NCBI GenBank assembly: GCA_021324365.1
Contig: JAJPJE010000042.1
Coordinates: forward strand, 1-64,000
Length of the DNA: 64,000 nucleotides
Reading direction: 5' to 3'
Source: Terriglobia bacterium
GTDB taxonomy: Bacteria > Acidobacteriota > Terriglobia > Terriglobales > Acidobacteriaceae
Numbering within the stretch: position 1 is the first letter of the stretch; each line of letters begins with the position of its first letter. Below are positions 21,567 through 32,181 of the stretch, piece by piece. The position numbers and the translations under genes were made by a program. The notes beneath the pieces are model-generated. The model was not told the origin of the DNA and did not search any database. It saw nothing but the letters and a program-made list of their open reading frames with translations.

Positions 21567-21903
21567 TTACTCACCTTTCATCTTTTCGCTGACCTGTTTG
21601 GCGAGTTTGGCCATCTCATCGGCGTTTTGGATGACATCGACGGACATGGTTGCGTCGGGATTTATGTTGTCCACGTATTTTTTGAGTTCCTGTAATAGTT
21701 GCGCCAATCGGGTGGCATCGGCCTGCAGGCTGTTCAAGCGCTTTTTTTAATTCATTGCGATAAATTTGCTTTTGAACTCTCTGCGCTTCCGGGCTCATCT
21801 GACTTTCCTAGCTGGAATTGTCGATGCGTTGTGCTATACGCTCAGCCAGTGCGGTTCCTGTCAGCAAAACACACATCAGCATCAAGAATCGAATCTTTCG
21901 CAT
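21567..21903 (-). pseudogene. Small secreted helical protein, disrupted by an in-frame TAG and an A7 frameshift
   Basis: ATG 21903 (with GAAGGAAG upstream) opens a signal peptide, MRKIRFLMLMCVLLTGTALA, that stops at TAG (21808-21810) after 31 codons. The same frame continues past the TAG into an ATG at 21798 (AGGAAAG upstream) and a helical segment MSPEAQRVQKQIYRNELKK. At a run of seven A (plus strand T7, 21742-21748) the frame is lost. With six A it continues as RLNSLQADATRLAQLLQELK, KYVDNINPDATMSVDVIQNA and DEMAKLAKQVSEKMKGE to TAA at 21567. The joined product, about 107 aa, resembles small exported helical proteins I recall from Acidobacteriota. Alternatives are a 31-aa secreted peptide plus a separate 76-aa ORF that relies on slippage. 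It lies 35 bp after the VWA gene, itself disrupted. Confidence 0.6.
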
Positions 21904-21938: not shown

Positions 21939-23711
21939 TTATTTTGCTGCTCTTTGCCCGCCTGCTGTCACCAGCGGCACGTCTACTGTTCCGATTTTGC
22001 GGCTTTTGCGGTCCATTACTCCGAGACGCAGTAGCACAGCGCCAGGCTTTAGCTCCAACTCCTGATGCTCTGGAATGCCGGTTTTAAGTGCCTGCTCAAA
22101 TGCCTCAGGACGGATGTGGGCGTTCATCGTGTCAACGGTGTGTCCGATATCTTTGCCCTCGCGGTTGTAGAGCGCAGCCACGAAGTCGATGGTGCTGTGC
22201 TGGCGGCCATCCTTGGTTTGCGTGAAGCTGATGTCCTGTGGTGCGACGGCGTAATCAATGCGAATTTGATTATGCTCTTTGTCGGGCATGAGGACCTGTG
22301 CACGAATCAGCAGCATGGTTGATTCGGGGACGGAGGGTTGCATCGCCGCAAAGAGCACGATGCCTGCGCGGTCGCCCGGAACTTCCGTTTCAGGTACTGC
22401 GTAGAATCCGCGGCGGTACTCGAGCTTTGCTCCGGCGTCAGTCACTCTGACTTAAATTTTGTGATACTCGCCATCCCACTTTTTCACAATCGGACTGAAA
22501 GCAATCGTGTAGTAGGTGGAGCCCTGCTCCATGGCACGCTCCATCATGTTCTTGATGTCGTTGCCGATGAATGCCTGGCCGCCAGTTTCGCGAGCGATAT
22601 CGTCCATGGTGCCCTTGGTATCCGTGTAGTCGTTGTAGCGCATCTTTTGTGCAAGCGAGACCTGATCGGTGGCAGAGCTCAGTTCCATCTGGGTGCTCGC
22701 ACTGGCACTTACGTTGGTTGTTTGCACCCCACGCACATCGATCGGATAAACGGCAATTTGTGCCGCTAACAGAAGCGCCGCCGTTTCACGAATGGCGCCT
22801 CCGTAGTTGTCGGGAACCAGCAGCGGATCGTTACTGAAGTCAGGTCCCAGGCGGAATGGGAAACCACCCGAAAGCCAAAAAAGATTCTTGCGTCCTGAAT
22901 AACCCGACACCGCTCCCGCCAAGGCTGCAATCGCGTCGAGGGTCTTCCTCGACCGCACGTCATTCTGAAACGTAACCTGCGCGTCCAACGCGCTTATCAG
23001 GCGTGCTTTGAGGGAAGAGTCTGGGCCCCCTTGTGCTGACGCGGCTGCATCGACCAAGAACGCGATATCGCTGACAGCATCCTGGTATTGACTATTGGTG
23101 GTCAATACTGGCGATGTGTTGGACAGAATCGACTCTGCCGCCTGGGTCAGGCGGTCGGAGCTACCGCTGAAACCCTGCATCATTCTCAGCTTTGTGCCCA
23201 ATACGAACAGCGCGACCTTCTGGCCCGGCGGCAGTTCTCGGAGGAACTGGATCATCTGCTTGCGTGCATATTGCTGGTCCTGCTGCGGCGTGTTCAGCAC
23301 GTCGAGCAGCACCACATTCACGGCGCTATTCGGGCCTTGCTCGGTAAAGTTGGTGTACTGATCCGGCGGTAGATTGATCTTTTCCAATTTTGCCGAAAGG
23401 GGCCGCCAAACGTGGGCTTCGAAGGCGCTTATTGGTTGCGGCTTGCCATCCTGCAGGATCGTGAAGTCCTTCTCAGTAAGCCCGCGTACAGGCTTGCCGG
23501 ATTTATCGGTCACCACCACATCGACCAGCACCAGTCGCGTACTCGCATGAAAAGTTGGAGTAGTCTCTGCTGCTTCGCCTTCACTCGACCCCGAAGAAGC
23601 TGCTCCGGTTGATAGCGTCTGTGACAACGAGCAAGGAGTCAATGATAAGAGCAGCGCGAAGAGAAGGAAGCAGCTCGATGGAGTCCGCCAGGAGCTGCTG
23701 ATCTTGGACAT
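21939..23711 (-). pseudogene. VWFA-related (acidobacterial-type) domain protein with in-frame TAA
   Basis: The frame encodes about 590 codons: signal peptide (CFLLFALLLSLTPCSLSQ), a beta-sandwich lead (STRLVLVDVVVTDKSGKPVRGLTEKDFTILQDGKPQPI), a von Willebrand A-type domain (AVNVVLLDVLNTPQQDQQYARKQMIQFL, GRKNLFWLSGGFPF) and a C-terminal beta domain (GAKLEYRRGFYAVPE onwards). TAA at 22452-22454 interrupts it exactly between GEYHKI and VRVTDAGAKLEYRRG. Both sides are in the same frame and the join is what the family is expected to read there, so one substitution (for example AAA to TAA) explains it. The first 419 aa keep the whole VWA domain and might still be functional. Members are exported proteins of unknown role, abundant in Acidobacteriota. 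Confidence 0.82.
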
Positions 23712-30710: not shown

Positions 30711-31042
30711 TATGATCTCCGTTCTTTCGCTGAGCACGCGTATGCGTGAAGGACGTCAAAGTGCTTGATTGAGCAGGAAAATCAGCGGGTAGACCGGAAT
30801 TAGTCGCAGCCGAACAGGAATGGGCGCGCGTTGCAGGGCAGCAGGTTCAGACCAACGCGGGGATAGCTGAGGCGGAGACGAAGGGTACACTTAGGCGCCG
30901 CGTTCAACTCAGCCTGGAATATGACGGTGAGGCGCATCTTCAACTCCAAGCCGATTATAGCCCTGTTTGATTCGGACGATAACCCCTGCAAGTGCCTGGA
31001 ACGGCACATTGGTTTGTGATCGCCGGTTACTTCACTGCCGTT
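30711..31042. other. Intergenic region without a supported gene
   Basis: About 330 bp between the aminotransferase start and the DUF3079 stop. A minus-strand frame (30800-31009) and a plus-strand frame from 30967 lack ribosome sites and family features. The aminotransferase promoter should lie at the left end. Confidence 0.35.
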
Positions 31043-31231
31043 CTATTTGCCTGAATTCTCCGGCGCGGGGCGATTTTCGGCCCAATCGAGCCAGTCTTCT
31101 CCAAATAGCTCAATGGGATGCAGTGTACGGATCGTTCCATTTCCGCAGGCCAGAGATTCCGCCGGGCAGAACTTATCGCATCCCCAGCAAATGCGGTCGG
31201 GATTTTTCGGAAGTAGAGGTATTTTGGCCAT
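31043..31231 (-). CDS. DUF3079 small cysteine-rich protein
   Basis: 62 aa. The sequence MAKIPLLPKNPDRICWGCDK, followed by FCPAESLACGNGTIRTLHPIELFGEDW, matches the DUF3079 family, with the conserved CWGCDKFCPAESLACGNG block and the HP-ELFGEDW end. The three or four cysteines suggest metal or redox binding. Function unknown. It is a lone gene. Confidence 0.85.
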   Translation of the reverse strand: MAKIPLLPKNPDRICWGCDKFCPAESLACGNGTIRTLHPIELFGEDWLDWAENRPAPENSGK

Positions 31232-31423
31232 TGCTTTTGTTCCACTAAAGCGTGCGCCGAGGCCGAAACGGCTGCAATGACTTTAGTCTCACCCCTCACT
31301 CCAAATACCTTTGGGGAGACTTCCTGGGTTGTTGTAATGTTGGGAGCAGTTCTTGCATTTCATACGTGAGTAGCCGGCTGCACGGGATGGGTTTCTGGAG
31401 ATTGCGCCGGACAGGACCAAACG

Positions 31424-31603
31424 ATGCCTCTTTACGAATACCAATGTGGCGCCTGCGGTGAGAGCTTTGAGATGCTGCGTTCGATAAAAGACGCAGATGA
31501 CCGCCTGGAATGCCCAAAATGCCATTCAGACCGCGTTCAGCGCAAGCTTTCGACGTTCTCATCCGGTGGATGCGGGGGATCCGGGGCGCGCGGATTTACT
31601 TGA
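31424..31603 (+). CDS. FmdB-type zinc ribbon protein
   Basis: 59 aa: MPLYEYQCGACGESFEMLRS, IKDADDRLECPKCHSDRVQR, then KLSTFSSGGCGGSGARGFT. The PLYEYxCxxCGxxFE start, the second CPKC pair and the Gly/Cys-rich tail are the FmdB/CxxC-CxxC regulatory family pattern, with one zinc bound by two CxxC knuckles. It is described as a putative regulatory protein; true function unknown. Confidence 0.88.
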   Translation: MPLYEYQCGACGESFEMLRSIKDADDRLECPKCHSDRVQRKLSTFSSGGCGGSGARGFT

Positions 31604-31643
31604 GCGCGATAACGATCGGCCGGTCGGCCGCAAATTCAGCATA

Positions 31644-32027
31644 CTAGTCTGCCCGGCAATCGCACGGTCGAAGCGAGGCAGGCAACAACGAGCAGACAAG
31701 ATTCTTGAGGTGCAAGAAACTCAGAATTTGTACGGCTCTCACCGCTCCTACAGAGTCGCGACAGTTTAAATTCTCTGCATCACCGCGCCGATTTGGCGGC
31801 GCATTAGAAATTAAGGCTCCCGATCGGGTAAGGCTCCGCAATATGCTGGCGCCGACAGAATCGATTACCGAAAGATCGCCCAGATCGAAAATTGCTTTGC
31901 GTCCTCTCAGAGAGCCGCAAACGCGATTCCATTGCCGCATTAATTCCGGTACTTCCTGGCCGGTAAACTCGCCTTCCAGACGAATCTTAACGGAATAAGG
32001 CTCATCGAAAAGAAGTACGCGCAACAT
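31644..32027 (-). CDS. STAS-like domain protein
   Basis: About 127 aa. Residues 1-75 have an anti-anti-sigma-like pattern: SVKIRLEGEFTG, then KAIFDLGDLSVIDSVGASILRSLTRSGA, with Ser in IDSVG at the position phosphorylated in SpoIIAA-type proteins. The last ~50 residues (NRRGDAENLNCRDSVGAV...) do not look like STAS and may be a family-specific tail or the result of a frame change. GAGG precedes ATG 32027 by 5 nt. A role in partner switching is inference. Confidence 0.55.
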   Translation of the reverse strand: MLRVLLFDEPYSVKIRLEGEFTGQEVPELMRQWNRVCGSLRGRKAIFDLGDLSVIDSVGASILRSLTRSGALISNAPPNRRGDAENLNCRDSVGAVRAVQILSFLHLKNLVCSLLPASLRPCDCRAD

Positions 32028-32181
32028 CGGCACCTCTGTAACGTAAATGCATAAGCCTTAAAATTAGTTACAGAAATTTCAAAGTTTCGCATCCAAGAGA
32101 GTTCATTTGCGTTTGCGGAGATTCCAGTTGCCCAGTCCGGGTAAGGGTTGTTAGCCTCAGATTTTGCACGGGAGGTGGGGA

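Follow-up and report, generated by a model that had tools for sequence, protein, structure and literature searches.

The small gene on the minus strand at positions 21567 to 21903 of the window (the whole 64,000-nucleotide stretch of Terriglobia bacterium DNA that was analysed) is, judging by its sequence, a pseudogene of a small secreted protein family and not a working member of it. It is very probably a diverged extra copy that shares one decaying unit with the adjoining VWA gene, and the intact copy on contig C23 of the same genome probably keeps the function. Five points were observed directly: the C-terminal piece is homologous to the family, the two genes carry three lesions, an intact copy exists, and the window copy has both a different location and a long branch. 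The elements of the two broken genes are as follows:

21567..21746, minus strand: C-terminal piece with homology to the small secreted family, ending KMKGE* at 21567
21742..21748, minus strand: A7 run, the meeting point of two frames
21749..21807, minus strand: middle segment of 22 residues in the signal-peptide frame, up to the A7 run
21808..21810, minus strand: in-frame TAG, closing the signal-peptide frame
21811..21903, minus strand: signal-peptide piece of 31 codons, with its ATG at 21903 and AAGGAAG upstream
21939..22451, minus strand: remainder of the VWA frame after the TAA, resembling the C-terminal parts of homologues
22452..23711, minus strand: upstream part of the VWA-domain gene (TIGR03436), up to the in-frame TAA at 22454-22452

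The first-pass annotation had described a signal peptide, a TAG, a same-frame segment, an A7 run and then the next frame ending in KMKGE, and this order was confirmed on the minus strand, the signal peptide and the helices being read off the sequence and not called by a prediction tool. A TAA just before the codon at 21746 closes the C-terminal frame on its 5′ side. With the TAG and the frame change, the window copy has no open frame leading from the signal peptide to the C-terminus.

The family membership of the C-terminal piece was established with a profile built from 53 other copies. When all six frames of the window were scanned, this piece scored 65.4 bits (E 6.4e-19) and the second-best match had an E of 0.58, hence the match is not due to chance. 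Against the intact C23 copy the C-terminal segment showed 48–50% identity. The other two pieces gave no significant score alone against the family profile: the signal piece reached −1.3 bits and the 22-residue middle piece 2.0 bits, and when the latter was shuffled 2000 times, at least 20 of the shuffled versions attained 4.5 bits or above. The equivalent 22 residues of 52 intact copies, scored with left-out profiles, had a median of 5.25 bits, and the profile test has little power for the middle piece because eight of the 52 also stayed at or below 2.0 bits. By eye, the middle piece aligned without gaps to the C23 copy, from SPE to the conserved Asp. That the middle segment belongs to the small gene is thus supported by its frame, position and spacing rather than by homology of its own.

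Of 41 genomes, the source genome and 40 relatives, 21 had a match to the small family, and homologues occurred in 251 of 398 genomes of the same taxonomic family. An intact copy is a short protein in which a signal-peptide-like start is followed by a variable linker and a conserved segment, all in a single open frame. Such a copy, of 119 aa, lies in the source genome on contig C23 (L021 4244-4603). Among the matches listed, open frames below 100 aa were confined to the window copy (59 aa) and a copy on G205 C90 (64 aa). A family copy with one internal TAG was also present among the matches listed (G271:C398:9929-10081), possibly an independent case of decay. Intact homologues thus exist and the window copy carries more than one disabling lesion, the two signs by which a pseudogene is recognized. 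The earlier proposal that a single exported protein was once encoded here, and that its two lesions point to decay, agrees with the intact single-frame homologues and with the damage to the adjoining VWA gene. Intact orthologues naturally ending after 31 codons, which would have spoken against it, were not seen among the homologues looked at. Neither Pfam nor NCBIfam gave a match above the cut-off for the small family protein, and in a PDB search its best matches had an E of 0.47 or worse. One phrog of unknown function weakly matched the C-terminal piece (E 0.0071) and none matched the intact copy. Among the literature titles listed, none dealt with the small secreted family, which is no claim of its absence from print.

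The window copy is unusually diverged within its family. When each intact copy was scored with itself left out of the profile, one of the 52 equalled or undercut the score of the C-terminal piece; one of the 53 family rows had no anchor motif and was omitted from this scoring, from the tree and from the conserved-site counts (n = 52). In a tree of 59 columns with many unresolved forks, the end branch of the window row measured 1.25 against a median of 0.21, and similarly long branches were carried by the intact rows L022 (1.99), L023 (1.23) and L102 (1.14). At sites conserved in at least 90% of the other copies the window copy differed at 5 of 22, a count reached by 2 of the 52 intact copies; at 80% conservation it differed at 6 of 25 (reached by five of 52) and at 95% at 3 of 14 (reached by two of 52), in a comparison sample that leans toward copies like the window one, since most of those fetched were best matches to the window piece. 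Divergence alone is no proof of lost function, because some intact rows are equally long-branched or equally changed. The C-terminal piece keeps a high codon-usage score (0.34) and a GC3 of 0.66, as against 0.69 in the intact galT. Its composition remains coding-like, so that the decay is probably of recent date, or translation of the piece might be continuing. The window row grouped with L054 and L056 (98/87), apart from the C23 copy of its own genome, which leaves both a duplication here and an arrival from outside as origins of the extra copy; the genus of the source comprises this genome only.

The gene immediately upstream, unmentioned in the first-pass annotation, is broken as well. Its frame matched TIGR03436 over positions 1-323 with 257.8 bits and with one TAA inside the match, and the part after the TAA showed 42% identity to the C116 paralogue. 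The junction at the TAA is read through by all nine VWA homologues displayed in a scan of 12 loci, the remaining three (L047, L084 and L027) having missed the text pattern. A search with the VWA C-terminal part returned eight rows with one internal stop, which may be natural ends as the matches reach positions 158-167 of 168; one of these rows, L028, reads through the VWA junction. A second TIGR03436 VWA gene of the source genome with an in-frame TAA, split over two rows, was noticed at G000:C96:11419-12453. Separately, a fragment resembling the VWA C-terminal part (73% DNA identity over 87 bases) lies at G000:C57:16116-16244 (L082), just upstream of another VWA gene, and is perhaps a relic.

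The surroundings of the intact copies follow a common pattern. A divergent MscS-type channel gene, so labelled from the Pfam assignment of the C23 neighbour, adjoins the small gene in 15 of 18 chosen loci with intact copies, C23 included, and is missing from L096, L100 and L110. The matched stretches of the two genes are 0.24 to 0.77 kb apart; L109 8201-9600 is one of the loci with this divergent arrangement. In 11 of the 18 loci the C23 H+-pyrophosphatase has a match no more than about 4.4 kb from the small gene, three of these matches having only about 27% identity. The window VWA protein had no match in any of the 18 intact-copy loci. The window copy sits between pgsA and the VWA-domain gene, starts 35 bases downstream of the last stop of the latter, and has no divergent MscS-type neighbour. 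Neither a VWA gene nor a small gene was present at pgsA in any of the nine fetched regions (9-14 kb each, from nine of the 20 relatives having a pgsA match). Repeats bordering the unit were limited to short imperfect pairs between 18000 and 27000, and no Rfam match at gathering score was obtained for a structured RNA between 20000 and 24500. Elsewhere in the window, a stretch of about 1.4 kb (30738-32163) holds just two weak short frames, with coding scores of 0.07 and 0.05.

The unit may instead be intact in the cell and broken only by assembly or sequencing errors, which we consider unlikely. The source genome is a draft of 125 contigs, the available text of PMC11017572 attributes many stops and frameshifts in draft genomes to assembly errors, and the coding signal is good on both flanks of the lesions. 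However, errors would have to account for two nonsense codons and one frame change that fall in two neighbouring genes, all between 21742 and 22454 (about 0.7 kb), and read errors alone would not cause the unusual divergence of the C-terminal piece. The other three 7-base homopolymers in the window fall within open coding sequences, which is a weak control since openness was itself the ground for selecting these sequences.

Expression of the small gene by slippage at the A7 run, with the TAG either read through or followed by reinitiation, is very unlikely. The A7 run lies at the frame junction, and slippage at homopolymer tracts can restore the frames of Blochmannia and Buchnera genes, according to the available text of PMC3017870; at A and T runs, transcript insertions prevail (PMC5574713, likewise in its available part). 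On transcript deletions, however, the same part of PMC5574713 states that a link with homopolymer runs is rare. Moreover, the possibly rescued genes described in the available text of PMC3017870 carry a single tract indel and are otherwise in frame, whereas the lesion of the window gene is not confined to the homopolymer, an additional TAG lying upstream. The suggestion that slippage at the A7 run could restore the frame is therefore not supported: slippage by itself cannot restore the small protein because the TAG stays. Intact copies are open in a single frame, and the A runs of seven or more found in three of the 53 other copies (L058, L014 and L012) occupy other positions with all frames open, the A8 of L012 lying, by eye, about five codons upstream of the site equivalent to the A7 run. 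Readthrough is disfavoured by the use of stop codons in the window, where TAG ends 16 and TAA 12 of 42 coding sequences (53 picked frames less three broken pieces and eight short or weak frames), so that neither resembles a sense codon. As to reinitiation, the ATG after the TAG, proposed earlier to have its own ribosome site, is present at 21798 with AGGA seven bases upstream, but it opens an ORF of 60 aa that lacks a signal peptide, departs from the conserved sequence at the A7 run and stops at 21616, outside the conserved frame. Still less probable is the combined case, in which stop readthrough plus A7 slippage would give some exported protein of full length from the broken VWA and small genes; if true, it would mean that an acidobacterium expresses an envelope unit leakily and at a low level.

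It is just as hard to credit that the pieces are separate working genes, namely one for a secreted peptide of 31 residues and one for a short C-terminal peptide: a good ribosome site does precede the first ATG and a TTG stands at 21737 in the C-terminal frame, but by eye no Shine-Dalgarno-like site accompanies the TTG, and the homologues hold the signal peptide and the C-terminal segment in one frame. Another genetic code was rejected, the stops of the 42 coding sequences including 14 TGA besides the TAG and TAA counts given above. A plasmid origin was rejected as well, with no DNA match in a near-mode search.

Under the preferred reading of a diverged extra copy in a decaying unit, an extra and already diverged copy of the small gene would have come to lie downstream of the VWA gene in this lineage, and the two genes would probably have formed one transcription unit. 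This unit may then have lost its use; a nonsense codon would have arisen in each of the two genes, along with a frame change at the A run of the small one. The intact C23 copy would have retained the family function in its usual place beside the MscS-type channel gene. We infer the co-transcription, the order of events and the loss of function of the VWA/small unit from the arrangement described above. More tentatively, the intact family may be an exported helical protein of the cell envelope, acting with the MscS channel or under the same conditions.

A decaying extra gene copy would be an ordinary finding, and acidobacterial genomes rich in paralogues have been reported in the available text of PMC3174227. 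The spread of the family (251/398 genomes) and its adjacency to MscS (15/18 loci) suggest an envelope or osmotic role. Before a gene with a frameshift in a run of A is called a slippage candidate, the remainder of its sequence and the adjacent genes ought to be checked.

Compared with known systems, the insect-endosymbiont genes with poly-A frameshifts (PMC3017870, available text) and the window gene both change frame at an A run, but the endosymbiont genes are otherwise in frame, whereas the window gene has an upstream nonsense codon and a broken neighbour. The window VWA gene differs from the TIGR03436 acidobacterial VWA proteins in the TAA inside its match, as 25 of the 27 TIGR03436 rows of its own genome list no stop. 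Finally, the window copy and the intact C23 copy have in common the homologous C-terminal segment and the signal-peptide-like start, but unlike the intact family the window copy combines a TAG and a frame change with a long branch and a place away from the MscS gene.
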